Origin: Kappaphycus alvarezii
Taxonomy: Eukaryota; Rhodophyta; Florideophyceae; Gigartinales; Solieriaceae
NCBI GenBank assembly: GCA_002205965.3
Contig: NADL03000513.1
Coordinates: 310,001-374,000, forward strand
Reading direction: 5' to 3'
Length of the DNA: 64,000 nucleotides
Positions 9,655 to 61,205 of the stretch are shown piece by piece (position 1 is the first letter of the stretch; each line of letters opens with the position of its first letter). The notes under the pieces are model-generated. The model did not search any database, was not told the origin of the DNA, and saw nothing but the letters and a program-made list of their open reading frames with translations. The position numbers were made by a program, and so were the translations under genes.

Positions 9655-9659
9655 CAGTA

Positions 9660-13758: not shown

Positions 13759-13856
13759 TTCCACCGTCAAGGTCATACAGCGGCACTCCGCATTGACAGT
13801 AAACTCCAATGCCGCTTGTTTGCTGGCTGGCCTCCCTTCCACCTTCTGGTAGATTG
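13759..13856 (+). mobile_element. LINE protein C-terminus and stop
   Basis: The frame reads V-I-Q-R-H-S-A-L-T-V, then N-S-N-A-A-C-L-L-A-G-L-P-S-T-F-W and a stop at 13851-13853. The same last residues end the LINE ORFs at 15138, 32708, 49611, 50803 (minus), 52662 (minus) and 59357. Confidence 0.65.
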
Positions 13857-13858
13857 GA

Positions 13859-14411
13859 GTGCCATCTACAGTTTTCGATGCATTGCCCCCAACCCCGGAA
13901 GGCACAACGTTGCGCCCCATTGCCTGTGACATCACTGTCGTCTCACCGTTTAAGGCCGCAGTTCGCACCAAGGCGACCCAGGTCGCCGGAGGCGCTGCTG
14001 AACTGGCGGCCCGCGATAAGGTCACAACCCTGGAACGCAACATCGCCCGACGCCTCCCCGCTCCCTCAACTGGTCCATCTTCTGCGCCTTACACGCCGAA
14101 CTTCACGTTTCGACCTCTGGCGTTTGATTCCCTAGGTGCCCCTTCCCCTGGAACTATTGCATTTATCGAGGAGTTAGTTCCGCGGATCGCGTCCAAGTGT
14201 TACTCGACAGTTGGCGTTATCCGCCGCCGTATCTACCAGCGACTGAGTTGCACCCTCTGGTCATCCATCGCTGAAGCTATCCTGTCGCGAGCCCCGATGC
14301 GCATGGACGACGAAGCACACCCGGTTAGATCTTAACCGTATAGTTAGGACGTGCGCAGTCCCCAGTAGATACTGAACGCATTAAACTTCTTTCTTTCTTT
14401 CTTTCTTTCTT
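13859..14411 (+). mobile_element. Second LINE lineage: endonuclease C-terminal region with TTTC tail
   Basis: An open frame of about 158 codons (13859-14335) reads L-R-P-I-A-C-D-I-T-V-V, then G-A-A-E-L-A-A-R-D-K, then F-R-P-L-A-F-D-S-L-G-A, and near its end R-I-Y-Q-R-L-S-C-T-L. This matches the final part of restriction-like endonuclease LINE proteins: D-x-T-V, a lysine/arginine helix, then the F-x-P-L-x-x-x-T-L-G block. It has no S-N-A-A-C end, so it belongs to a different lineage from its neighbours. A 3' UTR of only about 50 bases is followed by a (TTTC)n run at 14388-14411, a typical LINE 3' tail. It is 5'-truncated but has no internal stop. Confidence 0.6.
14388..14411 (+). repeat. (TTTC)n microsatellite
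   Basis: About six TTTC units, read here as the 3' tail of the LINE ending at 14335. A stand-alone microsatellite is possible. Confidence 0.8.
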
Positions 14412-14685
14412 GTACGGTTTCGCAAATGGCTTGGCCAATATACGGTATCTACGCTCCGGTACAAATTTACTGGGTACCAACCCACATATCTACCACAGTA
14501 AATTAACCCCCCATTTCAAAAAAGGTCAAATTTTGAAACGGTCAATTTTTTGGTCAACTACACGTGGCCACCTGGAACCCAGGTTTGGTGACAATTGCAC
14601 TGTTGAAAAAGGAGGTCTGAGCTGCATACCGGCGTACAGGATCGAAGTCCCGAGGATTGACGTACATCAGTGTAATAAGTCCAAT
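14412..14685. other. No recognisable feature
   Basis: Unique-looking sequence between two LINE remnants; I see no gene or repeat in it. Confidence 0.4.
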
Positions 14686-14815
14686 CGTTTAGTAGGGAAA
14701 ACGTTTGGGTGTTTTACTGTTGGAAGATATTTCCGACCTATCCCATGGTTTTCCAGACAACCGCAATCGACTCAAAAAGGGTGTACCTACAGCGTAATGG
14801 GGAAGGAACTAGTTT
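14686..14815 (-). repeat. LINE 3' tail (tail A), inverted copy
   Basis: Reading the minus strand gives TTCCTTCCCCATTA, then a GAGTCGATTGCGGTTGTCTGG block, then ATATCTTCCAACAGTAAAAC and ACCCAAAC. The same blocks occur in the same order at 21774-21895 and 60970-61095 on the plus strand. It is a 3'-untranslated tail of the main LINE family, inverted with respect to the copy just beyond the young copia element. Confidence 0.7.
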
Positions 14816-15075
14816 AGTAGGGTGCACTGGTTTAAGACCTCAAGGAAGCGGAAAATTTTCACTAAGCCTCCAGGTCGCCACTTTTGGACATACTGTAATC
14901 TTCAATACAGATGGAGCACGTGTGCCACCAAGAACACAGGCCCCTCGAAGGGAACGACGGAAAATGGCTGTCAAAAAGCCCGACATCAGACATCATCTCG
15001 ACAAGGCTACTACCAAGGCCCGGGTATTGCCCGCTGTACCCATCGCAGAGGCGCGAATACGAACAGCCACTCTAC

Positions 15076-15151
15076 TGGCCAGCAGCCGTCATGTCCAATG
15101 CGGCCTGCTTGATGGCTGGCCTGAAGAAAGCATTTTAGGGAACGTAGTTCC
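15076..15151 (+). mobile_element. LINE C-terminus split from its tail by element 2
   Basis: The frame reads A-A-V-M-S-N-A-A-C-L-M-A-G-L-K-K-A-F and a stop at 15136-15138. Thirteen bases later the copia element begins. The 3' tail of this LINE resumes at 21774 after the duplicated GTTCC. The upstream segment 14816-15075 is open in one frame but cannot be matched confidently. Confidence 0.7.
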
Positions 15152-15591
15152 TGTTGGTACAATTACAGCTTACTGACAATGTATGCGGGGACAGCTACTG
15201 TACTTTACAGTACTTTACTTTTCAACCTAGATCTTGACCGTTACGTTTATGCACTGTACTGTGCTGTGAGCTTGAGCTGATCTTTTTCAGATCAGCTCAG
15301 ATAGGTTTAGGGTTATTCCTTCACCGTCGTCTACATGGCTTCTGGAAACTTCCACAGGTCGTGCCGAAGCATCAAGCGACTCGCCCTGAAGTCTATATAA
15401 GCCATGGTCTCAGCCCACTCTTGGTCGAAGTAAAGTCTCTCACCACTTTCCCTTCTCTCAACTCTTCTCCTTGGTCGCTCACTTTCTCTCTCTCTCTCCT
15501 CTTGCTCTGTCTCTCTCTCCACTCGCTCTGTCTCCCTCTTCTCTCTCTCTCTCTCGTCCGCTCGCGCTCTCTCCCTTCTCCTTGTCCAACA
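15152..15591 (+). repeat. 5' LTR of element 2
   Basis: The 440-base LTR carries a TATATAA box at 15394-15400, followed by a long pyrimidine tract (CT-rich, about 15430-15590) in the likely transcribed part. GGTTATGGGCCCAG follows at 15592-15605, complementary to the anticodon arm of initiator tRNA-Met. Confidence 0.95.
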
Positions 15592-15659
15592 GGTTATGGG
15601 CCCAGAACACTAGCGCTGCTCACGAATCCATCTCGCTTGCTCGCGCACCCCGGACGCTA

Positions 15660-15750
15660 CCTACACTCCGTGTAGGGACAGACTGAACAACTTCGCGGAG
15701 GCTACCCTACACTCCGTGTAGGGAAGAAAAAAAAAAAAAAAAAAAAAAAA
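15660..15750 (+). promoter_or_regulatory. Twin hairpins and A24 run in the leader of element 2
   Basis: CCTACACTCCGTGTAGG (15660-15676) and CCCTACACTCCGTGTAGGG (15705-15723) are perfect inverted repeats with the same TCC loop. The second is followed three bases later by a run of 24 A (15727-15750). They sit in the untranslated leader between the primer site and the first ORF. A role in RNA structure, packaging or translation is only a guess. Confidence 0.6.
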
Positions 15751-16085
15751 GCCCTTAAGGTTTGACCGCACTCTCTTGACGTCTCTGCACTATCTACTGA
15801 CCTCCTGTCTTGTGGCCTGCTTAGCGTCCGTCGTCCCTGCTCTACCTACTCCTGTTGGTTTTGCAGCCCGTCGCCGCTCTTCATCCCCACACCACAGATT
15901 CCAGTACATCTTGCGGCCCGTCTTGCTCTCGTTGCTTCTTGTCTCGCCCCCGTGTTACATACCCCGGTTTGTCTCACGGCCCGTGCCTAGTCGCAACAGT
16001 AAGTCCAAACCATCTTGTGCTTTTCTCATACCATCCCGAAGCATTGCCTTATCCTCCGCCTAACCTCACAAATTTCTGTTACCAG

Positions 16086-16951
16086 TGGTCATCTCACTCT
16101 CCGTATTTCGTCGCGGCATCGACATCCCTCCGAACGATCCCGTGATTCGCCGCCTTACCTTCGACGAATCCTCCGCCAAGCCTCCTGTCCGTCCGAAGTG
16201 CCGTTTCATCGACGATTCCGCTATTGAGTCGGACGGCGAAGGTAACGACATTCCTTCCACCGCGACTACTCCAGAGGTTGTTCACGTCGAAGTCGTCTCC
16301 AAGCCTCCTCCTCCGGAGAAGAAGGACTCCTTCTTAAACCATATCCTTTCCCTTGCCAACCGTCCGAAACTGCCTGCTCGTCCGAAATCTCTAGCTCCGA
16401 AACCTCTACGAAAGAAGTCAAAGCCAACGAACCTTCGCTCCAAGCCGCTTCCTGCCTCATCGAGCAGAGTATCGAAGCAAAGCAAGAAATCAAAGGGAGG
16501 AGAGCCGAAGAAGAAGAAGGATCCGAAACCTCCGACACCTCGACCCATTCAAGTGGTTTCTCTCATCTCCCCTTCTCCGGCTTTGACGTCTCCAGCTCCA
16601 GCTGCTCCCATCCAATCTCCACTCTCTCCTGCTGCCCCTTCTGTTGCATTTGTTCCTTCATCTCCAAGGGTTCCGACTCCTCTTTCAGTCGAACCTCTCT
16701 CTCCGGCTCCATTCGTTCCCCTACCTCCAACTCCTGTTCCTCCTATCTCCAAGCCCAAGTCTTCCCTCCTGATTTGTGACCTTTGCCAACTCAAAGTCTC
16801 GGGTCCAAAGCAGCTCGAGCAGCACAGAGGTGGAAAGAAGTGTCGAAACAGAGTCGAGAGGAGATCAGCCATCACTCCGTGTGTTTGCTGCAATCGCCTC
16901 TTCCAGACGAGACACGATCGCAACAGGCACATTAATCATAGAAATAAGTAA
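16086..16951 (+). CDS. Extra proline-rich zinc-finger ORF upstream of gag in element 2
   Basis: The ORF codes for about 288 residues between the leader and gag. The N-terminal part is acidic and neutral; the middle is very rich in P, S and K (K-K-K-K-D-P-K-P-P then repeated S-P-x-P-A). The last 60 residues hold two zinc-finger-like units: C-D-L-C...H-x5-C and C-V-C-C...R-H-x2-H. This is not part of the usual copia gene set. A GTAAGT at 15999 and a pyrimidine-led CAG ending at 16085 look like splice sites of a leader intron, and Drosophila copia is known to splice. Function is unknown; nucleic-acid binding is the reasonable inference from the fingers and basic charge. Confidence 0.6.
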
Positions 16952-19900
16952 ATCTGTTCTCAACCTCCTGTGCTCCCTCTATCTATAAGCACAGTTTTCT
17001 CTCACTCCATTGCTTTTCTCCATGGACTCTTCAGGACTTCGACTCGACAGTCTCGAGAAGCTCCGTGATGACAACTTCCACATCTGGAAGTCGAGAATTC
17101 AACTATTGCTCTCACTGAGGGAAGTTGACGACCACCTCACTGAAGACCCTCCGGAAACCTCGTCACCTACATACTCCGCATGGAAGAAGGCGGATTGCAA
17201 GGCTAGGGCTACCATCGGACTGACTCTATCTGATACCCATCTCGAACAAGTCCAGCATGCCAATACCGCCAAGGTCATGTGGTCCCTGATTTGTGATATC
17301 TTTGAGAAGCATACTCTTCTCAATAAACTGGCTGCCAGGCGCCGATTCTATACCGCCAAGATGAACCCGAACGAGAAAGTGCTCTCGTTCGCCGCCCGTA
17401 TCCGCCAGCTCGCTGCCACTCTCAAGTCGATGTCCGTCCACATCGAAGACAGCGAAATGGCCATGGCGCTACTTAACGGCCTGCCAGATCGCTTTGATAC
17501 TCTCATCTCGGCCCTTGACGCTGCTCATCTCGATGACGACAAATTCTCCTTCGAGTTCGTTCAAAGCAGATGCCGCCAAGAGGAGCAGCGCCATGCCCAA
17601 CGAGATCAGGACGCTTTGAGGGCTTCGGAATCCGCGGCTCTTCTTGGAAAGCAACGGCCCAAGTTCAAGCGAGACCCTACCGCTGAGATATGCATACACT
17701 GTGGAAAGCATCGTGACAGCAGTCGCTGCTTCAAAAAGTACCCACACCTTGCTCCTGTTGGTCACCCAGCTCGAGCCCACTTGAACAAGGGCCGAGATGG
17801 GGGAAAAGGTCTTGTAGCTTCCCAAGCTTCCCTTGAGAAAGAAGAAGACAGAGACCTCGTCTGCTTGGTATCCATGCCTAACCATCGCGTCGCTGATTGC
17901 GACGCTGCAACTCCGGAGTATGAAACGAGATCGTTGTAAGCAATGTCACCACCGATCACTCGGTTGATGGAAATAATTGTCACATTGAAGCGAATCCCTT
18001 GAACCAAGCCAATGTGGCGCTACAAACTATTGGTAGCTCTGTATCCCTTGCTAATGAATGGGTTATCGATTCGGGCTGTACCTCCCATGTCACGCACGAT
18101 CGCTCGGCCTTTGTTTCATACCAAGAGTCCTCGGCTAACTCAACTCTGGATCTGGGAGCAGATTCTACAGCCTCTATCGAGGGAACAGGTGACGTAGTGC
18201 TGACACTCCGTTATAAAAAGGATACCGTTCAATGCCTACTAAAGAACGTACTTCACGTTCCTACCCTTCGATACCAGCTGCTCTCGGTATCCGAAATGGC
18301 AAATCGCGGCATTAACTCCCAATTCAATCGCAACGCTGTTCTGCTTACAGACAACACCGATGGATCTCTAGTGGCCACCGGCACTCTTGTCAAAGGCCTT
18401 TATATACTAGATACCTGTCAAAGTCCATCAAAGGCTAATGACTCGGAAGTTTCCTTGCTTACATCTCTGAAGACATGGCACGAGCGACTGGCTCACATCA
18501 ATACCGCTGAGATCAAGTCGATGGTTAGTCATGGAGCTGTCACAGGTGTTAAGTACGTCAACTCTGGGACCCCTGACTCTTGTGTGGGATGCATTCTTGG
18601 AAAATCACACCGTGCACCAATCCCAAAGTCAAGAAAAGGGCGGTCTACGAAACCCCTCCAACTGGTTCACTCAGATGTTTTAGGGCCTGTGGAGATTCCA
18701 TCTCTCGGTGGAGCGCGGTACTTAGTGTCTTTCATTGATGACTATTCCAAATGGACAGTCGCCTATCCTATCACTCACAAATCTAAGGTTTTAGAGTGCT
18801 TCAAGAAGTACAAGGCCTTCGCAGAAAAACACACGAGCCAGTCTCTAGAAGCTCTTCACGTCCTTGAGTTCCATGACTCCAGAATCCCGTTCGAGAATGA
18901 TCAGCTTCTGGTAAAGGCTTTACGGTCGGACAACGGAGGCGAATATCTATCTACAGCATTCAAGAACTTCCTGGAGGCACAAGGTATTCAACATCAGCTT
19001 ACAGTGGCTCATACTCCTCAGCAAAATGGAACAGCTGAAAGAATGAACCGAACCCTTCTCAATCTGGTCCGATCAATGCTGCATCACAAGTCCCTTCCAA
19101 AGCACTTCTGGGCTGAAGCGCTTTCTACCGCTGTGTATGTACTAAATCGGGTTACATCCAGTTCCCTGCCCGACAATACTACTCCTCATGAACTTTGGAA
19201 TGGAACACCACCAGATATCTCCCATCTGCGAGTGTTCGGTGCGCAATGTTGGTACGTTATCCCTAAGAAGGATCTCAAGAAGTTGGATCCCAGGTCTCGT
19301 GAGGCACTAATGATGGGGTACTCAACCCAAAGTAAGGGATACAAGCTGTGGGACATTGCGGCTGAGAAAATGGTTGTTTCCAGGGACGTCATATTTGACG
19401 AATCTTCGAATTCTCCGCAAGATCAACACTGTTCAAGCTTTCTCGACGACCAAATGGAAGGGAACACGAATCCCATCGGCAGCAATCGCACTTCCAAGGA
19501 TCTGCTGATTGATTCTCCTTCTGGTAGCATCGCATCTCCTTCTGGTAGCGAACAAGATGAGGGATCACTTGCCGTTAATGAAGATGCGAACCCAGTCCAA
19601 TCCAGCCCGGATACTCCTAGTATTGCTCCTCGTCGTTCATCCCGGATTGCGAAGAAGCTTGGCAGATGGTGGCCCTCCGGGTCGTCTGAAGATGTATCGC
19701 TCATTGCGGAAACCGCTCTTGTCTCTATTGGAATTCCAGCATCATACGAGGAGCTACTTCTTCAGAGAACGTCGACTTTTGGATGCCTGGAATCAAAAAG
19801 GAAGAAGACTCCATACGAGAAAATGGCACGTTCGAGCTTGTCCCGCGAAAGCCAGGGATGCACGTCATCCCTTGCCGGTACGTTTCGTGTGAAACCAGAC

Positions 19901-21334
19901 GTTGGTCCCAAAGTCCGCATAGTCGCCAAAGGATTTCGACAAGTTCCAGGTCTCGAGTATAATGAAACCTATGCTCCTGTAGTTTCTCTCTCTGCCCTAC
20001 GATTGTTTCTCTGCATCACAAACTTCTTTGACCTGGAATGCGACCAGATGGATGTTGTGACCGCGTTTCTTAATGGGGAGTTAGAAGAGGAAATATTCAT
20101 GGAAGTTCCGTCCGGATTTCACGACCCAGCCAGGCCAAATCTCGTATGCCGCCTTCAAAAGGCCCTGTATGGGCTTAAACAGGCTCCACGTCAGTGGTAT
20201 GCCAAGATTCATGAGCTATTAACCGCAGAGCTTCATTATATGAGTAATCCTCATGAGCCCTGTCTTTATGTCTCTCGACAGGGCTCTTCGATCTCCATAA
20301 TTATTCTGTACGTGGATGACCTTCTTATTGCTGGAAACGATCGAGTAACTCTGGAAAACATCAAGACTGAGTTGAAGAGTCGATTCAAGATGAAGGATCT
20401 GGGGCCTGTCAAAGAGTTTCTTGGAATCCAAGTTACTCGCAATCGATCAACAAGGACGTTACATCTCTCTCAGAAATCTTACACTGAGAAAATACTTGAA
20501 AGATTCAACATAGCCACCGCGAAGCCTGTTGATACCCCTATGGTTCTTTCAAACGGGGTCTCGGACAACAGCTCAAAGCTGATCTTTCCCCATCGATACC
20601 GTATCGCTCCGCAATCGGAAGTCTCATGTATTTAATGGTATGTACTCGCCCGGACATTGGTTTTGCTGTCGGTAAACTTTCACAACACTGCGAGAAGCCT
20701 CTGGAAAGCCATTGGAAAGCCGTAAAGCGAGTTTATCGTTATCTCAAGGGTACAAGCGACCTCGGAATCTGTTACAGTCCCTCTGCTGCTCCAACTATCA
20801 TCGGGTACAGCGATTCTGATTGGGCCGGCTGTCGAACAACTCGCAAGTCGACGGAAAGCTATGTTTTCATGATGTCCGGAGGTCCTATTTCGTGGCGTTC
20901 GAAGAAACAAGGATGTGTTGCGCTGTCTTCGTGTGAAGCAGAGTACATTTCCATTTGCACTGCGTCCAAGGAGGCAATATGGTTGTCTAACGTCTTGTCT
21001 GAAATACTGGGCTCAAATCATCCAAATCCGATTTCAATCTTGGTCGATAACTCAGGATCTATCAGCTCTGCCAAAAACCAGTCCATTAACGAGCGCAACA
21101 AACATATTGATATTCGATACCACTTTGTTCGTGAGGCCGTGGCAGCAAATCAGGTCCATTTGTCACATTGCCGAACCGAAGACCAAATCTCTGACATTCT
21201 GACAAAACCTTTGCTTCGAGTGAAATTTGAAAGATTTCGGAATGAGTTGGGCATTGTTTGTTCACATCAAAGTAATGTTTGATTGTTTTAGGTCGAAGGG
21301 GCGTTATCATGGTCAATTCTAGTTTGAGGGGGCG

Positions 21335-21773
21335 TGTTGGTACAATTACAGCTTACTGACAATGTATGCGGGACAGCTACTGTACTTTACAGTACTTTAC
21401 TTTTCAACCTAGATCTTGACCGTTACGTTTATGCACTGTACTGTGCTGTGAGCTTGAGCTGATCTTTTTCAGATCAGCTCAGATAGGTTTAGGGTTATTC
21501 CTTCACCGTCGTCTACATGGCTTCTGGAAACTTCCACAGGTCGTGCCGAAGCATCAAGCGACTCGCCCTGAAGTCTATATAAGCCATGGTCTCAGCCCAC
21601 TCTTGGTCGAAGTAAAGTCTCTCACCACTTTCCCTTCTCTCAACTCTTCTCCTTGGTCGCTCACTTTCTCTCTCTCTCTCCTCTTGCTCTGTCTCTCTCT
21701 CCACTCGCTCTGTCTCCCTCTTCTCTCTCTCTCTCTCGTCCGCTCGCGCTCTCTCCCTTCTCCTTGTCCAACA
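21335..21773 (+). repeat. 3' LTR of element 2
   Basis: This 439-base LTR is the twin of 15152-15591 and is preceded by the polypurine tract GTTTGAGGGGGCG. Confidence 0.95.
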
Positions 21774-21895
21774 GTTCCTTCCCCATTACTGTGTCGATAT
21801 ACCCTTTCTGAGTCGATTGTGGTTGTCTGGAAAACTTTAGGATAGATCGAATATATCTTCCAACAGTAAAAACACTCAAACCTTTTCCCCTCTGC
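21774..21895 (+). repeat. LINE 3' tail (tail A), severed half
   Basis: This continues the LINE that ends at 15138. It reads GTTCCTTCCCCATTACTGTG, then a GAGTCGATTG block, then ATATCTTCCAACAGTAAAA and ACTCAAACC. An uninterrupted paralogue of the same junction lies at 60962-61095. Confidence 0.75.
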
Positions 21896-21985
21896 TGGCC
21901 CACCTTCGTACTACACACTGAGGTGGTAAATCTTTATGGGTTGTACAATGTCGCACAGAAGCGTGCGGAGAGTATTCATAAATTA
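21896..21985 (+). mobile_element. Short fragment related to the Ty3/gypsy fossil
   Basis: About 75 bases match 42105-42180 (a GGTAAATCTTTATGGGTTG block, then GCACAGAAGCGTGC). Translated, both give V-N-L-Y-G-L-Y-N-x-A-Q-K-R-A-E. It is an isolated remnant between two LINE pieces. Confidence 0.55.
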
Positions 21986-21989
21986 ACTA

Positions 21990-23040
21990 CGGATGCGGGC
22001 GGCGGGTAGAAACCTGTCGCGCCTGCATTATTTGGAGACTAAACGCAAAACGGGTAACGAAGTCGCGGAGCTCCTGTTGAGGGGAGGAACCGCGACGGGA
22101 AGCAGCGAAGGAAGCAAGGCGGCGGGAAAAACCCTTGCCGTCGTCGTCCAAGGCGCCATAGATATCAATCCCGACGGGGAGAGGAGGATATCGTTTTGGT
22201 TGCAGTAAGTGCCGTAATGACGATGTTTCTCGCGCTCTGCGAGTGTTGCGGCAGCGCCTGCGGTAACCGTACTTGGCGAAATGTGGCGGCGTGCGGAGGG
22301 GTGGGCAACAGTAACGTCGACGGCGATATCGGTACTGTGAAGCCCGTATGCAGCGGGTATGTAAATGTCCATTCGTAGCGCGGGGACTCCGAATGCCCAG
22401 ATGGGTTGGGAACCTGGTGAAGGAGCGGATGTTCGACGAGGGCGACGATCCCAACTTCCTTGCAGTAGCGGGCAAGAACGTTGCGGAGGATGTGATGACG
22501 ACGAGTCATTCCGTCTTCGTATTTGCAGGTCAACGCGTGTTGACCACTTGGATCCAAGACGGGTGCGATGTCGGCCGAGCGGCGGGAGCAGACCGGACAT
22601 CGAGTAGATCCAGGGAATAGCGCGATGCCGAGACGTAGAGCCAGAGCGACTTTCCACGCAGAAGAGGACATGTACGTACCGCAGTGGGGGTGAGGAAGCG
22701 AAGAGAAAACAGACGAGGCGGAGGACGTGCGCACGGAGAGGAGCCGTGCTCGGTCGTGGGCTGCCGCGGACGTGAACAACCTATCGGACTTCGATAGCAT
22801 GAGTTCAGTTGTGATCGCAGACTGGAGCCTTTCGCCGAGGACCGGCGATGAACAACGCTCGACAAGAGCCGTAGCTGTAAGCGACGAAGACAGCTGCGGG
22901 TGGCGGGAGGATAAGAGCGAGATGGGGGACCGAGGGATCTCTTCCATGTGGCGGTCCTGGGAAAGAGTGAGCAGGTCGGAGATAAGTCCAAACGAATCAA
23001 TTACAGATGCTGTGTAAGCAGCCTCAGTAATGTTTGAAGT
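21990..23040 (-). mobile_element. LINE copy C: pre-endonuclease region and restriction-like endonuclease
   Basis: A long open frame on the minus strand (about 23040-22380) reads G-G-L-D-L-L-Q near its start and then A-L-A-L-R-L-G-I-A-L-F. The endonuclease zinc region follows: C-P-V-C, G-Q-H-A-L-T-C-K, and T-R-R-H-H-I-L. In an overlapping frame come M-D-I-Y-I-P and I-A-V-D-V-T, the likely catalytic acids. C-C...H-C followed by PD...D-x-T is the signature of R2-type LINE endonucleases. Only the C-terminal third of the element is present; the RT is missing, and the frame changes within the nuclease. The part 22036-22550 is almost identical to 9126-9654. Confidence 0.7.
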
Positions 23041-23203
23041 TTGCAGGAGATCCAGACCGCCCGTGGAGAAGGGGAGAGAGGCTCGGAGCCAGGCTACTAC
23101 ACACAGCGTCGGGTCTAAGATGGGACAACCAAAGGCGCATCAAAGCGGCCAGTTAAGGAGCTATCTCGCTCAGGTGGGCTACTTGTACTGTGGTCGTCAC
23201 TGT

Positions 23204-23525
23204 AGGAGAAACACAACGACCACTTAGCCACACCCGCGCTGGCATGTCAAGTGGTGCACTGAGTGAACACACAGCCCATTTCAACAACCCCGCTCACTCA
23301 GGGGACCACGGGGTGCTGTAAGGACTCAGACATCTTACACCTCATTGTTATCACGTATAGGACAGTAAGCAATGCCGAACCCAAATTAAATTTTCACCAG
23401 TGCGACCACGTGCGTGGTTCGAGCTCAGCGATGCTACCATGTGGGAGAAACACACCGACCACTTAGCCACACCCGCGCTGGCATGTCAAGTGTTGCACTG
23501 ACTGAACACACAGCCCATTTTAACA
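23204..23525 (+). repeat. Direct repeat of about 83 bases, two copies
   Basis: The copies at 23204-23286 and 23443-23525 share blocks such as CGACCACTTAGCCACACCCG and GCTGGCATGTCAAGTG with a few differences, and are spaced 239 bases apart. They lie just upstream of the N-terminal coding part of LINE copy B, so they may be 5'-UTR repeat units of that element. Confidence 0.7.
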
Positions 23526-23589
23526 CAATCAGTACATAGGCTCTAAGATTTCCGGTCCGCCAGCAAACGGCCTCTTCGAGTTCTCGTAC

Positions 23590-24801
23590 TCAAAGTGCCC
23601 AAAATGCACAGTCCATACGGCACCGGGGCGGTACCAGCTCTGCACCAGACACAATTATGTAGCCCATTACCGCTGAAAACAGCCTCCCCAGTCCCCTCCC
23701 AGACGACCCAGTCCGTCCGGCGAATTCCGAGAGTACCACACCTTGCATTTCCCCAAAAGCCCCTGCCCCGCTGTTCTTTCATCACCAGCACCCGCGGTAA
23801 ACACTCAAACATTGGCACCAGAGGCAGACGCTAAACCAACGACACCGGAGATACAGCCACTGCTACCTGTCCAAGACATATTTACAATACACACTCCTGT
23901 CAGGGCGCATATCCCAACAAAAATTTAGGGGATTACTTGCCGAGCTGTACGCCAAGACAATGGAGGGAGCACTTTCCGCCTGCACATCTGGACAACCCCA
24001 GGGAGTGCAGATATTCATCGAAGTATTCCTTTTTCCTGTAGTGATGTTTTCGGACATTTCCTCCCTAGCTCCTGTTCTGTCGAGCGCCGCCCGCAATCGA
24101 TCGCAGAAGCATTGAAAGAGCGGGTAGAAATATGGAACCCAAGCCAATACATGACTTTGTCGGAACAGGCTGTCAGTACGTCTCCCCCACGCGCTGCGGC
24201 TACGGCGCCTAACTCCGACCAGCAACAGGTGGACACCCGCAGAGCTACTAAACTGGCTAAACAGGTGGCATATGGAAAGGCAGCACAGGCGCTCGGCTAG
24301 TTGGGCGTCCTACCACCCACCCCAGAGGTCGTCCAGGCACTCCTCGAGAAGCACCCGCGACAAGGCCCCCACGACGAGGCAGCGTACCACACCGCAGTAG
24401 AAAATGCCTCGGATTTTCCGCCACTTCACAGAGAAGGAGGTGCTCGACGCTGTTCATGGGTTTAAACCAGGTTCCTGTGCGGAGAATTCTGGTCTCAAAC
24501 CTTGCCACCTCGTCGAACTTCTGCGATCCCCGTTTTCATCTGGCCCGTCCGGATTTTCGCAGCCTTCCCTAAACTGGTGAGCACCTTAGCAGCCGGCAAG
24601 GCGCGAGCTGCTCTTGCCCCCTCGATAGCTGGCAAACACCTAACCCCTTTGGCAAAGAAAGACCTGACACCCAGGCCAATAGCCGTAGGGGAAACGCTGC
24701 TCAGGTTGACTGGTAGCTGCCTAATGACAAGAGCCTACGCGAGAGTAGCAAAATACCTGCAACGGCTGCAGGTTGGCATTGGTACCCAATCCGGCACTGG
24801 C
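23590..24801 (+). mobile_element. LINE copy B, N-terminal region and RT fingers
   Basis: This is the left part of a LINE that was later split by two LTR insertions. A C-P-K-C motif at 23596-23607, followed by H residues, resembles an N-terminal zinc finger. Downstream, frames read A-T-K-L-A-K-Q-V-A-Y-G-K-A (about 24247), F-T-E-K-E-V-L-D-A-V (about 24428), L-A-P-S-I-A-G-K-H-L-T-P-L (about 24618) and R-P-I-A-V-G-E-T-L-L-R-L (about 24676), the segments that precede the palm in this LINE family. It ends at the duplicated CTGGC in front of the copia element and resumes at 30333. Frame changes and stops show it is inactive. Confidence 0.75.
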
Positions 24802-25354
24802 TGTGAAAATTGACCAAATATTTTAATCTCTATCCCGGTGTCCTACAGTGATGCTGAATTGTGGAGCAATATTTTTTTTGAGGCCCACAATTTATATTTA
24901 TTGTGAATCATCAAGGAATAATTTTATCTGTTTTATACTGGCCCTATTTTATGCTGAATTCAGTGTGAAATAATTTTTATGTACTACAGTTGGGTTTTTA
25001 TATTATACAGGCTATAATTATTGCATTTATGCTACCAAAAATTATTATCTGGATGATTGCTTACCTGGAAAATACTGCAATAATTATTACTGAGCCTGAA
25101 TTATGTCTACCAAAATTATTGAACGGATCACCTGATTTTTGTAGCAGGTTCACCCTGGTGTAGATTATAAGTAGTCTAGGTTGTTGGAAATATTTTTACA
25201 TCCTCGGGCTATCGAAATATTCCCCTCGATCAGATACTATTAAATTTGGTTTTATATTCATTATTCATTCCAAGTCCGATTGTGGCATTTATTTATTTAT
25301 TCAAGTTGGAACTATTTATTGTTATTTGGATCTACCTATCCCAATTATTTTGCA
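24802..25354 (+). repeat. 5' LTR of element 3
   Basis: The LTR is 553 bases, begins TGTGAAAATTG and ends ATTTTGCA. A TATAAGTAGTCT block at 25166 recurs in the 3' LTR and, as TATAAACAGTCT, in the solo LTR at 30772; it is the likely promoter. Confidence 0.9.
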
Positions 25355-28300
25355 GTTGTGGGCCCAGCTCGCCCCGAGATTCCTTCAAGGCCGAAATTTA
25401 CATGGGATCTTCGCACGGCTCCTTGGACGGATGGTAAAGGACCTCAAGAAAAATATTTTGATGCTGTTCAAAAATGGAAATCTGTTCATGATTTATTACC
25501 AGCATCAAATTCTAATAGGTTTTCTAAGGCAGTACAAAGTCTTGTCTTACAATTACAATTATTTGGACGAGCTCTTGATATTTGTAAGAAAATTCCAGAT
25601 ACAGAAACTCAGTCTGAAAATGGTGCATTAGCAATTGCTAACTCTATTCATAAGGTGGATCTTCTATCATCTATATCAGATACATTTCAAAAATTCGTAG
25701 ATCTATTACACACTACTCGTGGTGATATTGAGTTTTTCAAAAATTTTGAATGACGGTTTGATGCTCAAATTGCCCGATTTCATTCATCTACTGGTACTTC
25801 GAAATTACCTGAAGCACTGGTATCATTTTTGCTCGTGGCTAATTCCAAAATTGATTCAAACCAGCGAGTATCTATTTTGGCTGCTGCTTCTCCGAAGCAT
25901 GAAGAAGCCGATTTGGAAAAAGGAAAAATCCTAGAATTAATCAAATATTCAGAAATATAATCTATTATTCGTGCATGTGATAAAACAAAAAATACAAATC
26001 AAATATATGGAAATGCTCAAAAATATATCTCTTCAAGTCAATCAAATATTTCATACGGAGAAAAGAAAATTTTCAAGAAAAATAATAAGCAAAGATTATC
26101 TCCTGAAGACTTTGCTGCGCTCAAGGCAAAATCAACTTGTGACCGATGTGAAGAAATTGGCCATTGGGCCTATGAAAAAGATAAATGCAAGGGTGGTAAA
26201 AATTATCCTAAGATTCATCATCTAGAATGGGAAATGCAGAAAATATCAAAGACAAAAATGATTCTGGTTCTGTAACATTTCATATTGTAAAAACGGTGCT
26301 TGATTCTCCGTCAAATACGTTATACCTAGGTCCGTTACTTGATGATGGAGCACCGTATAGTGGAATGGGGATTGATGAATTACGAGCACTTTCGAAATTT
26401 ATTTTACCGGAATGGAATGGAATTCTTGATGAACTTCCTGAATGTATCAAGAACACGCCCTTCTGGCAATACGGAAATGGCGCCCAATCAAGCGAAAAAA
26501 GAAAAATGACCGGTTCAGTATTTTTATCAGCTATTTCCGACAATGGAAATCAGGTTAAAATAAGGCATCTAATAATCAGTGGATCATCACAATGGATTAT
26601 TGGAAGAAATATCACAAGGAAATCAAATATTATTCATATGACGGACAACCGCATCGCGTTCAAGTCCGCAAATAATTCAATCGATTCGATAGCATTGTTG
26701 GATCATGGTCATCATTGTTATGTACCCGAAATATATTTATACAATCATCCGACTCTATTGAAAACTCATTTCTATCAGCAATTTGTTCCAACAATATCAA
26801 TACGTCAAAAAATATATCTTGGGCTGAAAAGAAGAAAATAATTAATAAGGTTCACAAACATGTATGTGGTCACTCAATTTATGATGATATAAAACTATTG
26901 TTACAAAGAAATTTTATATGGGACGATGAATTCAAAAAATATTTATCAAGCATAATTGACTCCTGCAAATTTTGTGATGTCACAAAAAAACCATCTCATC
27001 CTCGTGCAGTATCTCTAAGCTCTATATTTCGCGGATTTAATGAATTAGTTTGTATGGATCATTTTTTGTGGAAAACTTGGATATTTTTCACATTATGGAC
27101 TCGGTTACCAGGTATTCAACTGGTTCAATAGTGCCCTCTTTAAGATGGAAAATTGCATTAATTGTATTGAGACTCTCTGGTTAACACCATTTTGGGACCC
27201 TAACAATTTAATGGGAGATCAGGCGTTTGACAATGTATTTTCAGAAGCTATCTTGAGGAAAGAGGAATTTCATTTTGTCCTATTGGTTCCCGCCGCCATA
27301 ACAAAAATTATATTGAGTCAAAACATAAAATATTGAGAGACATTTATATCCGTTTAAAAATATCCGATTCTTCTGCAAGTAATACGGTTCGTATTGCTCC
27401 AATGTTTCAAATATCAAATGATTTATATGGAAATGATGTTGTTTCTTCATACGAGCTTGCCACTGGTCACACTCGACCCATCGATAATTCTGGTCCTCGA
27501 AGTCTACCAAATGATTTAAGAGAAGCTCATAATGAGCTAATAGCCAAGAGTAAATTAAATCTTATTCTAAAATCAAAGTCTGTGACCGATATTCCAATTA
27601 ATGTTGGCGATATTGTGGAAATTTTTATTCATCTACCAAATCAGAAAAGAGGATCTTGGTCATCGCCCAAACCAGTATTGAAATTCGACAAAAAATCTCT
27701 TATCGTCACAGTACCTGGATCCAATGGAAAATTTATACATGCTGCAATTGAGGATGACTGACATTCCGTTTCATCTAATGAACTAGCTTACCAAATTCAA
27801 AAGGCAAATGATTTATTGAAAAAGTCTATTGAATATTCTGTATAAGATATTTCTGATGCAACAAATATTACCGAAGTGAAGAATGTGGGCGAAAACAATT
27901 TTGACGATCATTCTGATGATGGTAATTTTAACCCAAATATGAATACTGATGTCGAAAAATATAATGAATCAGAAAGTGATGGAAATTTATCAGAATCTAA
28001 AAAAATTATCTCTCGAACATGTTCCGATTGAATCTGAACTTAGTTCCCTACACCCTGAAAATTTAATTCATATCCCTATCGATGAAAACGATGGAATTGG
28101 TGCGCATGAAATTGAGTTGTTACCTGGAACGGAATTGAAATCATCTGAACAAAAAGATCTGAGTTTTTATCATAAAAGGATTGGATCTAAAGAATTTATA
28201 CTTCATCAAGCATCTGGACTTCATCTCATATTATTTCAAATGCGTACGATACGGAAGAAAATAATTTTCTAACTACCTGTTCAAAAATTCATGTTTCAAA

Positions 28301-29778
28301 AATGTAATATCCAGTCACGTTTTATACAAAAAAAAATTTTTAGATGATGGAAAATATTATTGCAAGGCTCGAATTGCTCCGCATAGGAATGACGACAAGG
28401 AGAAAAATAATTTGAGAACTGATTCGGAATCTTGTTATCTGATAGCAATTAGAATTCTCTTATCAATTGCTACAATTTTTAAATGGAATTTGTCAAAGGT
28501 TGATGTGAAGTCTGCATTTTTACAATCTGGATCAGCATTGCGAGATTTTTATGTGAGACCTCCTCGGGAATGCTCTGAAAAATCCTTCTATTGGTTATTA
28601 CTGTCTGCTTCATATGGGTTAGTCAACGCGAATGCAAAATGGCAAATACACTCTGATAATACTTTCTTTGACCTTGGATTGAAATCAGTCGTTTATATAC
28701 CCCAATTATTTTCCATGAGTTTAAAAGGATCATTAATTCTGCTTGTTGTTAAATTGGTCGATGATATGCTTATTACTGGACAAAAAAAATTAAGAAGCAT
28801 TTTATCCAAGATCCTGGGAAAGTATATAAGCTTGGTACAATCGTACATAGACCTGGATCTTTTAATTTCAATGGAGTTAAAATCATGCAGTTTGATGACT
28901 ATAAAATTAATGTCTCAGCTGATGAAAAGCTAAACGGACTGGAACCCCATCCAATATCAAGAAATCGTCGAAAACAACCTGATGAAGAAATGAACTCATT
29001 TGAAAACTTCGCTTTTAATTCGTTAAATGGTTCAATTATCTATTTGGGTATGGTTGCATCTCCAGTGCCTGCTTTTACAGCAAGTTATTTACAACAGGAA
29101 AGGTCAAATCCATTGGTTCGTGATTTATCTATTCAATCCTTTATGCTTCGGAATTTATAATCTTTTGGTTCTACGAGCACGTCTCGGCGCCCGGAAGTTT
29201 CTGGAAATTTCAACTTATCAGTTGTTGTTTTTTCTGATGCAGGAAAACCAGCCGGTTCGACAAATGCGCAACTTGGATGTATTGATGGACTGCTTATTGG
29301 CTTTTTAATTTGTAATTAAATATTTTATACAACTTATTGGCATTCACATCTATCTCGGCGTCCTGTTAAATCTATTGCATCTGGTGAAATAATGGGTGAA
29401 GCTGTCGAGGAAGGAAAAATTATTGCAGCAGCATACAGTGCACTTCTAAATATAAATATTCCTCTTCGTGTTGCTGTTGACTCAAAAGATCTATTCAGCT
29501 CTCTATCTACTTGTCGTGTGCCTGAAGACAAATCTATTAGAGCGGATGTTCAATTAATTCGATATAATTTCGAAACGAACAAAATCAAGAAAATGCTATG
29601 GATACCTGCTTAAATTAATCCCTCCGACCCGCTCACAAAAAAGGACAGTCCTGTATCTGACATGCTCATGCTCCTTTTATTTGATGGATCTATACCTATG
29701 GATATGAGTAATATTTTATCTCGGGATTCATCTCAGTCAACAGGATAAATTTAGTTCAATATTTCAAAGGGGAAGTGG

Positions 29779-30332: not shown

Positions 30333-30337
30333 CTGGC

Positions 30338-30449
30338 ACCGTTGTCCACGTAGTCCGAAGGGTCGTAAAGAAGTTCGGGCCCAGCTCCGAATACAGAAGT
30401 ACGCATTGCTGTTGTTGACCTAAAAATTGCATTTAATTTGTGCAGTCGG
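30338..30449 (+). mobile_element. LINE copy B, segment between two LTR insertions
   Basis: The 112 bases continue the RT of copy B. One frame gives V-V-H-V-V-R-R-V-V-K-K-F and the next gives I-A-V-V-D-L-K-N, which aligns with A-I-L-T-V-D-L-Q-N-A-F-N-L in copy A. It ends in GTCGG, duplicated on the far side of the solo LTR. Confidence 0.7.
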
Positions 30450-30948: not shown

Positions 30949-30953
30949 GTCGG

Positions 30954-33612: not shown

Positions 33613-33681
33613 GTTGATTAGTGGTACCCATCAGTGAGGAGTTATCCCACACAACGCACTAGCGTCTATTGGACCGTTTTT

Positions 33682-49519: not shown

Positions 49520-49750
49520 ATGCGACACTCGGCGTTGGCAGTAACTTCTAACGCTGCTTGCCTGCTGGCTAGCATCCCATCGACTTTCCGGTAGACTGTT
49601 GCTGGTGCTAGCATTCGACAGCAATGATTTGTACATTGCTTCGACCATTGGTAAATGTATTGAATATGACATTCAGATTTACAACTGTAAATGGGTTCTA
49701 GCCAATCCATACATCTTAAAGAAGACACCCCTCTTTTTTAACCATTTTTT
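49520..49750 (+). mobile_element. LINE C-terminus and 3' UTR, plus-strand arm
   Basis: The frame reads V-V-M-R-H-S-A-L-A-V, then T-S-N-A-A-C-L-L-A-S-I-P-S-T-F-R and a stop at 49609-49611, then a 3' UTR (CTGTTGCTGGTGCTAGCATT...). About 220 bases match the minus-strand copy at 52490-52715 at roughly 90 percent by eye. Confidence 0.7.
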
Positions 49751-49997: not shown

Positions 49998-50062
49998 TAA
50001 ATAATATTCCGGGCCACAACCGACTTTATCTTTCAAATATTAAAGCACCCCACATTCCCCCA
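49998..50062 (+). repeat. LINE 3' tail (tail B)
   Basis: ATATTCCGGGCCACAACCGA, then TTTATCTTTCAAATATTAAA and GCACCCCACATTCCCCC. The same order of blocks follows the LINE stop at 59385-59445. Confidence 0.6.
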
Positions 50063-50669: not shown

Positions 50670-50965
50670 CAAGGGAGGGAAATTTAGGGTGTTTTTAATC
50701 CATGAAAAATAAGGTCAGCTGTTCCCTGAGGGATGTCGTGATATGGAAAAAAGCTTACAATGTAAAGGATTGGCGGAAGCCGTCAAAACTCTAGAAAACT
50801 GGCTGGATGCCAGCCAACAGGCACGCCGAATTCGACATCGCTGCCGGTGCGGTATGACGTTGTGTTAGGACTAATTTGACCTTTGCGAAGGTCTCCCTTG
50901 CCCTCGTCGCGACGTTGCGTGCGACGTCGGTCAACAACGCGTGGCTGTCCAAAAGTCTAGAGCAA
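50670..50965 (-). mobile_element. LINE C-terminus and 3' UTR, minus strand
   Basis: The minus strand reads H-A-L-L-T-D-V-A-R-N-V, then A-K-V-K-L-V-L-T-Q-R, then M-S-N-S-A-C-L-L-A-G-I-Q-P-V-F and a stop near 50800. The 3' UTR contains an ACTCTAGAAAACTGG-type junction and a TTTACATTGTAAGC block and ends in ACACCCTAAATTTCCCTCC near 50672. It is the inverted homologue of 32580-32870. Confidence 0.7.
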
Positions 50966-52489: not shown

Positions 52490-52715
52490 CCAGAATGTGT
52501 ACAAGGGGAAAAAGGGGGGTGTCTTTATTGAGATGTACGGATTGGCTGGGTCCCTTTTTGAGTTGCAAATCTGCATGTCATATTCAATACATTTACCGAT
52601 GGTCGAAGCAATGTACAAATCATTGCTGTCGAATGCTAGCACCAGCAACAGTCTACCGGAAAGTCGATGGGATGCCAGCCAGCAGACAAGCAGCGTTAGA
52701 AGTTACTACCAACGC
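52490..52715 (-). mobile_element. LINE C-terminus and 3' UTR, minus-strand arm
   Basis: The minus strand reads V-T-S-N-A-A-C-L-L-A-G-I-P-S-T-F-R and a stop, then CTGTTGCTGGTGCTAGCATT, as at 49612, and ends in CACCCCCCTTTTTCCCC near 52505. With 49520-49750 it forms an inverted repeat of about 220 bases around the 51390 ORF. Confidence 0.7.
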
Positions 52716-53227: not shown

Positions 53228-53290
53228 ACATAAAAAGGGGGGAAATTGGGGTGCTTTACTGATTAGGGATGCAGGACGGCAATTTTCCGA
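53228..53290 (-). repeat. LINE 3' tail remnant
   Basis: The minus strand reads AGTAAAGCACCCCAATTTCC then CCCCTTTTT. It is matched by 61486-61545 (also minus) over about 60 bases, including the adjacent AGGGATG block. It carries the shared C-rich end box of the LINE tails. Confidence 0.5.
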
Positions 53291-53854
53291 GGACTAGGTG
53301 GGGACAGGTATGTGTAATGGACTTTCTGAAAATAAGGCTGAGTCACACTTGGTCCACGACGTTTGAGTGCGATCTCTCCATGACTACTCGAAGGGAAGAT
53401 CCAGAACGAGACCCATAGGGCCTCTGTTTGATATGCCTTGAAGGAGAAGTTCTGTGTAATGTTAGGCTGGATGCCTCATCCGATAAGCCATAGCATTGAG
53501 TTAGGTGACTATTATGGTCTTACAGGTTGTCAAGGTTAGCATGGATGAATCGCTCCCTCCATTGCTTGTGGGGCATTCGTACCTTCCAGTGATTTAGAAT
53601 TATGTGTGTATATTTTGTTCTTGATAATGACGTTGCTGTTGATTGGTTCTGGCCCTTACGACGGAATGGTCTAGCCGTGAGATACTTGAGAGTTTAGAGT
53701 ATCTTGATTGGAACTTCTGTTTAGTGTGCGAGATCAGTGATCCTGTGCTGTTGGGTTCGTGAAATTTTATAAGTACCTAGATTTTCTTCGTAATCTTGCA
53801 GAAACGTTCGGCAGAGCAGCAATCAGTAAAACTACATCGTTCTGTCTCAATTTT
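53291..53854. other. No recognisable feature
   Basis: Unassigned intergenic sequence with only short ORFs and no repeats that I can match. Confidence 0.4.
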
Positions 53855-53930
53855 CACGAGGTACTAACTCACAGGGCTGGTGTGAGGCCAGCCGTAAGGC
53901 ATGCTGCGTTGGACGAAACCGTCGCCTCAG
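53855..53930 (-). mobile_element. LINE protein C-terminus fragment
   Basis: The minus strand reads E-A-T-V-S-S-N-A-A-C-L-T-A-G-L-T-P-A-L and a stop near 53870, the conserved end of the main LINE family. It abuts the copia LTR at 53942. Confidence 0.55.
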
Positions 53931-53941
53931 CGTTTTTGTAT

Positions 53942-59050: not shown

Positions 59051-59052
59051 GT

Positions 59053-59450
59053 CTGTGGATGCAAATTTATCAGACTCGAGCAGTCAAAGGGAAGAATGAA
59101 TACTTTTAAAGCTTTAAAAATTAATGAATATTTGGTTGCAACCTTCATGAGAAGTAATATCGTGGCTGTTCCTCTATCTAATATCGGTGGTTGGCACTCG
59201 GATGCATATAAGGTGCTAACAGCCATCGCGCGAGACGTGGAAGCTAGGGCAATGGAGACATATGGTAAGGTCTGAGCATTACTTACTCAGAGGCAGGCTG
59301 CCGCGACCGTAATGTCCAACGCAGCTTGTCCGCTTGGCGGCCTCCAGCCGGCTTTTTAGGGAAAATTAAGAGGTACCCTGTAGGATATTCCGGGTCAAAA
59401 CCGACCATATCTTTAAAATAATAAAACCCTCCACCCCAATCCTTTTCGAG
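59053..59450 (+). mobile_element. LINE C-terminus and tail B
   Basis: A single open frame reads V-A-V-P-L-S-N-I-G-G-W-H-S-D-A-Y-K-V-L-T-A-I-A (about 59160), then A-R-A-M-E-T-Y-G-K-V, then M-S-N-A-A-C-P-L-G-G-L-Q-P-A-F and a stop at 59357-59359. An internal TGA at 59273 breaks it. The 3' UTR has ATATTCCGGGTCAAAACCGA and ends AAAACCCTCCACCCC near 59437. It begins immediately after the LTR of element 4. Confidence 0.7.
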
Positions 59451-60179
59451 CTGCTGAAGTATAGGTTGCCGGCAATAATAATTGCTAGAAATCTGAAAAT
59501 TCCAAGGCTAAGGACCACGAAAATCCTGCGTGAAAGGCCGGTACTGCACCACCGGAACTTTTCTGATCTCAGAATCTGCAAAATATTCTTGAGAGGCTTT
59601 CCAACTCCGATGAACAGTCTCGAAACGATACTTTTTCAAAGATTAATTCGATCTTTGTGTCAATTAGTGTAATAGTCCCAGTTCTAATTTTCGCAAAATA
59701 GTTAGTAACTGGTAGTATTCGCTGGAAATCATGTGATAGGTTCTAGTGTACAAATAAAATACCATTTCCACCATACGTGGAGGGGATTGTAGGGTAATTT
59801 ACCTCGTCGTCTGTTCATTCAAAGGGGGGGGATAAGAAAAGTGTTGTAATGATACCGAGAAGTGCCGGAGCATAATGCCAGTCTTCAATGTTGCCGTGGG
59901 AGAGCTGCGGATCCCTAGAGTTCTATTCAGGCCCGGAGGGTTCTATTCAGGCCCGGAGGGCTTGTGTACGGCAATCACCTAACAGAAGCTCTTCACAAAC
60001 TCTTTCATGGACTGGTAGAGTCAGTTTCTGTTGCAATGGAGGATTTAAGTAAAAAATACCTAAAGGAAACCTGAAGAAAGGGCGAGAAGATAAGGTCCAA
60101 AGGTTGAATACTATTTCGGTTTTTTGATAAGTTTACAAGTCTTTCAGTGCAAACGTCATACATCGCTCTAGTACCTTTT
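59451..60179. other. Mostly unassigned; perfect 20-base tandem pair
   Basis: At 59921-59960 the 20-base unit TTCTATTCAGGCCCGGAGGG occurs twice without a spacer or mismatch. At 59785-59830 there is a GGGTAATTTACCTCGTCGTC block shared with 61155-61200 and, inverted, with 10357-10405, a further LINE-derived motif. No gene is visible. Confidence 0.5.
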
Positions 60180-60520
60180 TTGTATCGGAGCTGGAAGCGA
60201 GTAAGGTGGCTTCGTAGATACTTCTAGCTGCGTTAAGGCCGATTATGAGTGTTTGATTCTCGCCCCTACTAGATTTGAGAGAGCGTTGTGGTTCCTCCAC
60301 GCCTGCAGTGTCTGTTATTACCTCCTGTAAACGTTTTCATGTATTTTTCTGTCTTTTTACCTGTCATAGTTACTTCGCTACATTGTGTGCGGTAGCAGCA
60401 CGACTCAGAAAAGGTATCCAAACTTGCATCCCCACAAGCAGCTGCACAAAATCTGAAGGCCGCCTGCTCGTCCTTTAGTTCCATAATATACTGTATAAAT
60501 GGCTCAAGAGAGTGCATGTA
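60180..60520 (-). mobile_element. Possible LINE RT-thumb fragment
   Basis: A minus frame from 60517 reads S-L-E-P-F-I-Q-Y-I-M-E-L-K-D-E-Q-A-A-F-R. This aligns in pattern with S-L-Q-P-F-R-K-S-L-L-T-T-E-N in copy A (about 10910) and L-K-P-L-V-D-T-I-I-A-S-E-N in copy B (about 31480). Only this block matches, so the call is tentative. Confidence 0.4.
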
Positions 60521-60559
60521 GCTGGTAAAGTATTGTTACATGAATCTATTTGAGCAATT

Positions 60560-60850
60560 GGGCGCCTTGAGCGAAAGAAGGTTGCGGATACTCCATCTAA
60601 TAATTATATGGCCTAGCAATTTAAAAATGACGGTTCGGCACCTCGTCATTTGGGTCGTTTCGTTTTGATGCAAGTTCATACTGTAGCACCCGTCATGTTT
60701 ACTGTGGCCTGCTTGGTGACTGGCCTTCAGTTGCCCTTTTGAGAATCATTGATCTTCTCCATTATTGTGTCAATATGCCCCTTTGAATCGATTGCGGCTG
60801 CCTAGAGTACTTTAGGATGAATGGAATACATCTTCCAGGAGAAGGACAGC
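60560..60850 (+). mobile_element. LINE C-terminus and diverged tail A
   Basis: Near 60690 the frame reads V-M-F-T-V-A-C-L-V-T-G-L-Q-L-P-F and a stop. A diverged tail A follows at 60755-60850 (CCATTATTGTGTCAATATGC, then a TCGATTGCGGCTG block and ACATCTTCCA). It lies 215 bases before a second tail A. Confidence 0.55.
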
Positions 60851-60954
60851 CAGAATTTCATCCTTCGATTAGCTGCAAGAATGGGTTTAACGCACAAGGC
60901 CCGAAGTTAATGCAGTATCTCGTGGAAGTGGCTCTGGTTTTGAATTCAGTTTCG

Positions 60955-61205
60955 TGAAGGTAGCATTTTAGGGAGCGTAGTTCCTTCCCCATTACTGTGT
61001 CGGTATACCCTTTTTGAGTTGATGGCGGTTGTCTGGAAAATCATGGGATAGACCGTATATATCTTCCAAGAGTAAAACACCCAAACCTTTTTCCTGTTTC
61101 GTCAAATTATTCGAGCACTCCCGCATATAAGTATGCATCTGTTGAAGAAGGCGGTAAATGGTGGGGTAGTTTACTTCGTCGTCTGAAACTTCTAGCGGGG
61201 AGTGA
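60955..61205 (+). repeat. LINE 3' tail A, uninterrupted junction
   Basis: GCATTTTAGGGAGCGTAGTT then CCTTCCCCATTACTGTGTCG. This is the exact junction into which element 2 inserted in its paralogue (15127-15151 plus 21774 onward). It continues to ACACCCAAACCTTTTTCC near 61090, followed by a GGGTAGTTTACTTCGTCGTC block at 61155. Confidence 0.7.

Follow-up and report, generated by a model that had tools for sequence, protein, structure and literature searches.

Scattered SNAACLLAGL protein endings in a 64-kb stretch of Kappaphycus alvarezii DNA as probable 3' ends of an R2-like LINE lineage

The stretch of Kappaphycus alvarezii DNA analysed here (contig NADL03000513.1, positions 310,001 to 374,000; 64,000 nucleotides, hereafter the window) carries on both strands a series of protein endings that read SNAACLLAGL, or a variant of it, just before a stop codon. 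A sequence-only reading had taken them for the 3' ends of many 5'-truncated insertions of one family of long interspersed nuclear elements (LINEs) encoding a reverse transcriptase (RT) and a restriction-like endonuclease (RLE). A six-frame scan of the window, in which the residues of ten matching SNAACLLAGL were counted and a stop was required within six codons, bore out the endings on both strands, within about 25 bases of the positions first listed (Table 1). Eight sites have at least seven matching residues, against none in 20 Markov-shuffled windows, while at five residues there are 13 hits against 7.75 expected by chance (highest shuffle 12); this level is so near chance that weak hits require DNA support. 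Site 60698 has such support from tail-D copies in L023 and L054 (L-numbers denote loci from the window's own genome, 336 Mb in 884 contigs). The other weak ending of the original list, at 33570, gave no hit of five residues or more because one codon has been lost (SNAYLLAEI), but it lies within a homologous stretch (33302-33604) of 88-102 residues that are 58-62% identical to the full-length parents described below. Of the W-H-x-D-A-Y and R-x-M-E-T-Y blocks said to occur often upstream, one or the other is present, as such or as a variant, at five of the ten noted endings (13800, 32690, 50830, 59310 and 33570), but none was seen by eye at the other five; in the copy at 13800, unrelated sequence sets the blocks apart from the motif.

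Homology extends well beyond the ten residues. With a 57-residue C-terminal query, all 150 scored places in the genome match (the best 150 of 11,225 preliminary candidates), and nine genomic C-terminal domains are 65-98% identical to the first of them, with SNAACL invariant in the nine aligned sequences. Three of the 150 matches sit in frames of more than 1,000 residues, namely L059 (1,170 residues stop to stop), L060 (1,230) and L062 (1,052), each with an RVT_1 domain; full-length parents of about 3.8 kb therefore exist. The two findings that would have refuted the original reading, motifs unrelated outside the ten residues and a genome lacking a full-length parent, were looked for and did not turn up. 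A profile of five parents against PDB matched best the R2 chain 9nl3 (E 8.8e-8), followed by 9dou, R2Tg (1.4e-7), and the motif very likely ends the one protein encoded by a lineage of R2-like LINEs. A second collinear stretch in this comparison aligns the RLE end, with the W-H-x-D block and a RAMEAYGKV block, to R2 (5.4 bits, independent E 35); both upstream blocks thus probably have counterparts near the R2 C-terminus, and SNAACLLAGL itself falls beyond the aligned part. Downstream of the RT, a CCHC knuckle and RPD...GTDFFDVT were recognised by eye in aligned sequence A2. The protein would run from a zinc-finger-like N-terminal region through RVT_1, the CCHC knuckle and the putative RLE to a C-terminal extension of the order G-W-H-P-D-A-Y ... 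R-A-M-E-T-Y ... L-T-Q-R-H ... S-N-A-A-C-L-L-A-G-L. In the original description of RT plus RLE elements, the RT part is confirmed by the RVT_1 domain and the R2 match, and the endonuclease is assigned tentatively, by motif, position and a weak alignment.

The codon pattern of the motif occurs at 4,758 places in the genome (2,464 and 2,294 on the two strands), against none for the backwards control. Among the matches listed, 89 of 100 motif places lie within two differences of one of nine 23-mers, which include those of the window copies 13805, 15094, 53884 and 52671; the 23-mers of 13805 and 53884 occur without mismatch seven and five times, respectively, among the 100 listed places. Two pairs of the nine differ by just two bases, and seven distinct groups is therefore the safe count. 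The 3' untranslated regions (UTRs), here called tails, are of several types as well: counted genome-wide with up to three mismatches, tails A, B and C are found at 1,044, 371 and 1,257 places, respectively (controls 0), and copies in the window and in L023 and L054 carry a fourth, tail D. With at least seven motif-DNA groups and four tail types, what had been described as one family is a lineage of several subfamilies. A 5'-UTR pattern occurs at 104 genomic places. Over the compared stretch, identity to L059 is 97-99% at sixteen of the other 29 C-terminal loci, which suggests recent activity, though the search favoured similar copies.

All four tails end alike, in ...ATTAAAAACACCCCAAATTTCCCCC (tail A), ...AATAAAGACACCCCCCTTTTTCCCC (tail B), ...ATTAAATCACCCCACATTTACCCC (tail C) and ...AGTAAAACACCCAAACGTTTCCCCC (tail D), and the copies read have a fixed 3' end with a run of C and without poly(A). 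With 0.25 sites expected, a loose version of this common 3'-terminal motif has seven in the window, of which five end known copies and two are new (Table 1); a strict version has 5,294 genomic places against nine for the control. Where the two listings overlap on the genome (76 protein-motif places and 100 3' ends), 24 pairs consist of a protein motif and a 3'-terminal motif at most 450 bp downstream on that strand, as compared to one pair in reverse order and four on opposite strands, and the distances cluster at 113-117, 135-150 and 170-174 bases. Of the 100 3' ends listed, 24 thus have a strict protein motif close by, and the remaining 76 could be diverged or shorter, or could belong to other lineages.

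Among 30 C-terminal loci, one of which is the window's 59315 copy, 13 extend past the 1.5-kb flank and the other 17 have a 5' junction within it. The junctions of these tail-C copies lie between 5326 and 6773 of the L059 locus; the query left out any copy of less than 57 residues plus tail. Target-site duplications of 9-14 bp were found in 12 of 16 copies tested, that is, fifteen of the C-terminal loci (L033 and L034, whose 3' ends are disrupted, were left out) and window copy 52671. All 12 duplications differ from one another; nine start with C (P about 1e-4) and the preceding base is A in ten, by eye, which suggests a target preference YA|C, although the leading C could instead be a base of the element's C-run shared by chance with the target. 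Of the 11 LINE spans tested in the window, four have flanking repeats above chance: two exact (14695, 52505), one marginal (15081) and one offset (50677). The claim of many 5'-truncated insertions holds for most window copies, which lack the 5' part and in some cases have duplications, but it fails for the ending at 32690.

That ending closes a LINE begun 18.3 kb upstream. Alignment of L060 to the window by tblastn and blastn gave collinear pieces in order, and 14526-32858 is therefore one LINE copy, interrupted by nested insertions (Table 1). Its 5' start is common to L060, L062 and L063, six stops lie within 31402-32679, and a target-site duplication was looked for and not found. The ending at 15085 does belong to a 5'-truncated insertion, as had been proposed, but one that is a guest within this host LINE. 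The guest resembles L023 and L054 at 94% over 71 bp of coding end and 86% over 116-120 bp of 3' UTR, and is flanked by the duplication CTCTRCTGGCC (10/11, shuffle p about 0.05, marginal alone). Just past it, and before the next insertion, which is of a second LINE family, the host LINE seems to continue with LLAHLRTTH (seven of nine residues as in L060; weak, E 6.8 alone).

We consider it very likely that the scattered endings are the 3' ends of mostly 5'-truncated copies of R2-like LINEs, inserted by target-primed reverse transcription. The endonuclease would nick the target, presumably at YA|C, the G-ended 3' end of the target would pair with the C-run of the RNA and prime synthesis, the protein would read the common 3'-terminal motif, and reverse transcription, beginning at the 3' end, would often break off early. 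Last codons and 3' UTRs would thus be left scattered on both strands; the 9-14 bp duplications are as this mechanism predicts. Several observations weigh against it. The collinear RLE stretch is weak, at the scores given above; the parent profile also matched an unrelated PDB chain (E 0.035); the parents have no endonuclease match in Pfam, and a PDB search with a profile of the C-terminal 311 residues returned nothing at E 10. Six of the 17 5' junctions are bunched at 6666-6703 and not evenly spread, and about seven window copies (15094, 49547, 52671, 53884, 13805, 33121 and 60698) have, by eye, their starts some 13-54 bases upstream of the motif, a distribution not accounted for by simple random stopping; for the window copies this may be partly ascertainment, as they were picked by the motif, or may reflect a preferred RT stop or a SINE-like short form (SINE, short interspersed nuclear element). 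No significant duplication was found in four of the 16 tested copies and in seven of the 11 window LINE spans. The full-length parents read include no tail-B parent, and the 5' and 3' patterns differ in breadth, so that their count ratio is just indicative of heavy truncation.

Three other explanations were weighed against this evidence. If some short copies, above all those with tail B, were a SINE, a non-autonomous element whose 5' end is fixed and whose 3' end is borrowed from a LINE, it would account for the many window copies below 300 bp, for the two window tail-B copies that start, by eye, within about 10 bases of each other, and for all 40 scored matches to the query 52380-53000 starting within about 20 bases of each other. 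That query, however, is limited to a truncated copy, which keeps its matches from starting any further upstream, and because of this a uniform 5' end of the 218-bp tail-B unit is not demonstrated. The tail-B copy at 52505 has its duplication right at the start of the coding end, which fits a truncated insertion. Loci with tail C differ in their 5' junctions, and the parents bear the same tail; for tail A, by eye, a distance of about 3.8 kb separates 5' from 3' hits on C59, C48 and C31. We regard a SINE origin as improbable.

Still less probable is that 14526-15140 is an internally deleted composite of LINE 5' and 3' parts, amplified as such, for which the trypanosome RIME provides a model. The 5' UTR and N-terminus do pass straight into a C-terminal motif at 15080, but this junction is absent from the other 39 best-matching places (best 40 of 2,243 candidates). 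The near-perfect duplication that flanks 15081-21890, together with the host LINE, which resumes past the guest and continues in order to 32735, led us to reject the composite. We give least credence to an origin of the protein ending by chance or convergence. The 7.75 chance hits per window at five residues would allow it, whereas the excess of strong sites over the shuffled windows, the DNA identity shared by the window copies and the genomic count against an empty control all speak against it, and for the strong sites it is rejected.

The insertion of 3' ends of an R2-like LINE thus remains the preferred explanation, and its nearest relatives among known systems can be compared. The likeness to R2 LINEs lies in the RT similarity to 9nl3 ('R2 retrotransposon protein') and 9dou ('R2Tg retrotransposon ORF') and in the weak collinear stretch near the R2 C-terminus that includes G-x-W-H-x-D. 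According to PMC7650587, R2 integrates by a target-primed process with 5' truncation and inserts at one site of the 28S ribosomal RNA genes. In contrast, none of the 12 differing duplications of the present lineage has AAGG|TAGC, by eye, and the lineage has SNAACLLAGL beyond the R2-aligned part and a 3' C-run. The 12 duplications found show no R2-site insertion, by which the R2 clade proper is recognised, and, all being different, they equally show no single repeated target of the CRE or MoTeR type (spliced-leader exons, telomeric repeats). BLAG and other non-site-specific R2-like elements are described in PMC7650587 as R2-related and randomly distributed in animal hosts; by that description, BLAG is alike in its R2 relation and dispersal and differs in its animal host. 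The Utopia/NeSL clade, according to PMC4640811, comprises RLE-encoding LINEs of three eukaryotic supergroups with 5'-truncated copies, Utopia targeting U2 small nuclear RNA genes and having a low copy number in oomycetes; the present lineage, by comparison, is dispersed in thousands of copies. Most LINEs with this endonuclease type are described there as target-specific (PMC4640811).

Going by titles and abstract openings, we found no paper on this LINE lineage. The EhLINEs and EhSINEs of Entamoeba are likewise abundant and dispersed, the LINEs being of RLE type with low target specificity; this likeness is one of description. The elements reported here form a new family of a familiar type and not a new biological system: another dispersed R2-like lineage that has a C-terminal tail and a 3' terminus of its own. 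As a tentative proposal, which we think rather doubtful, an R2-related lineage may have dropped its fixed target and risen to thousands of copies through a 3'-terminal code, TAAA-n-CACCC-n-TTT-CCCC, which would close the RNAs of several subfamilies and be read by the protein; the C-run would pair with the nicked, G-ended target at YA|C. The rest of the 3' UTR would turn over with the code itself preserved, so that one protein could mobilise several tails. R2 proteins are under adaptation for targeted gene insertion. A dispersed lineage with thousands of copies and recent-looking members is a natural data set on relaxed target choice, and also on which part of the RNA 3' end gets read. For annotation, the lineage explains short orphan ORFs in this genome.

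Table 1. LINE copies, motif sites, nested insertions and isolated 3' termini in the window, with the aligned residues of parent L060
Feature	Positions	Strand	Motif site (matching residues)	Remarks
C-terminal fragment	13402..13849	+	13805-13834 (10/10)	WHPDDY block at 13402-13506, separated by about 265 bp of unrelated sequence from VIQRHSALTVNSNAACLLAGLPSTFW and stop
Host LINE, tail A, 5' end to 3' end	14526..32858	+		with stops and nested insertions; collinear with L060 residues 1-1230
Host LINE pieces	~14526-14697, 14812-15081, 21891-21921 (weak), 23099-23200, 23524-24798, 30332-30506, 30936-32858	+		
L060 residues 1-50	14554-14703			
L060 residues 34-163	14778-15089			
L060 residues 165-198	23099-23200			
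L060 residues 198-599	23524-24798			
L060 residues 599-654	30332-30506			
L060 residues 637-785	30956-31402			
L060 residues 786-1210	31402-32676			protein end at 32735
Host LINE C-terminus	32694..32735	+	32694 (7/10)	SNEECLLTGL, then tail A 3' UTR to ~32858; 83% over 275 bp to 50671-50944
Tail-D insertion, 117 bp, 3' UTR only	14695..14811	-		antisense in host LINE 5' UTR; 98% over 117 bp to L054, L023; duplication CCCTACTAAAC, 11/11
5'-truncated tail-D insertion	15081..21890	+	15094 (9/10)	3' UTR split by copia element 15143-21774
Fragment of second RLE-LINE family	~21922-23098	-		guest in host LINE
LTR (long terminal repeat) element	24793-30333			guest in host LINE
LTR-like piece	~30532-30950			guest in host LINE
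Short copy	33064..33261	+	33121 (6/10)	VNASCLLTGF; 79% over 195 bp to L045; no duplication found on testing
Truncated copy, RLE end and C-terminus (noted 33570)	33302..33650	+		102 columns, 62% to L062; 3' limit guessed; no duplication found on testing
Short tail-B copy	49525..49738	+	49547-49576 (8/10)	92% over 215 bp to 52509-52723; no duplication found on testing
Isolated 3'-terminal motif, tail-C type	50041..50061	+		
Truncated tail-A copy	50677..50950	-	50806-50835 (8/10)	24-bp direct repeat (1 mismatch) flanks both sides, 14-15 bases off limits
Short tail-B copy	52505..52715	-	52671-52700 (9/10)	duplication TTGTACACAT, 10/10
Isolated 3'-terminal motif, possibly another tail type	53237..53258	-		
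C-terminal end, another subfamily	53854..53933	-	53884-53913 (9/10)	SNAACLTAGLTPAL and stop; 83% over 81 bp to L025; approximate limits
Truncated tail-C copy (L059/L060 subfamily)	59124..59434	+	59315-59344 (8/10)	in-frame TGA; 77 residues 66% and DNA 78% over 319 bp to L059; no duplication found on testing
Decayed tail-D copy	60662..60837	+	60698-60727 (5/10)	71% over 178 bp to L054, L023; no duplication found on testing
Tail-D copy cut within last few codons	60955..61092	+		without motif; 90% over 136 bp to L054, L023; 7-bp flanking match, not significant

The window copies inspected are broken. The original list had not picked up several tails without the motif, nor the copy at 33121, whose protein identity is 62-66% over 29-33 residues. 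A repeat at 14694-14811, 21773-21889 and 60978-61095 was considered as a 118-bp miniature inverted-repeat transposable element and rejected, since it is the tail-D 3' UTR.

Among the elements nested in the host LINE, the copia-type LTR element 15143-21774 has LTRs (15152-15592 and 21335-21774) that are 99.8% identical and a 903-residue frame encoding both integrase and RVT_2 domains, and from its sequence it looks young; a duplication GTTCC was seen by eye, while the local-alignment script found none. The LTR element 24802-30333 and its inverted counterpart 2590-8088 agree at 91% over 5.5 kb, and in either copy the two LTRs are 97% identical. At a break in the N-terminal region of the host LINE lies an 86-bp direct repeat (23201-23286 and 23440-23525, 94% identical).

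Other LINEs are also represented. The second family, found at 9117-9686 and ~21922-23098 (minus strand) and in L064-L068, has an RLE-like C-terminal part and frames of up to 955 residues, with RVT_1 in L066; all 123 scored genomic places match, and its end, FVTRFAFSLQIMQARQV, may by eye correspond to the SNAACLLAGL region. A divergent RT-to-RLE stretch at 9756-11707 (minus strand; about 30-50% identity) belongs to the same wider group and seems to be interrupted, near 9690-9756, by the second family. The C-terminus of an apparent third such lineage (IYQRLSCTLWSSIAEAILSRAP), followed by a CTTT microsatellite, lies at 13853-14335 and is 67% identical to stretches in L020 and L060. A direct repeat joins 53938-54280 and 58720-59063 (89% identical over 344 bp). 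Finally, a single-exon frame at 12020-13282 encodes PH and protein kinase domains, and its eight nearest genomic places are 57-81% identical over 113 queried residues.

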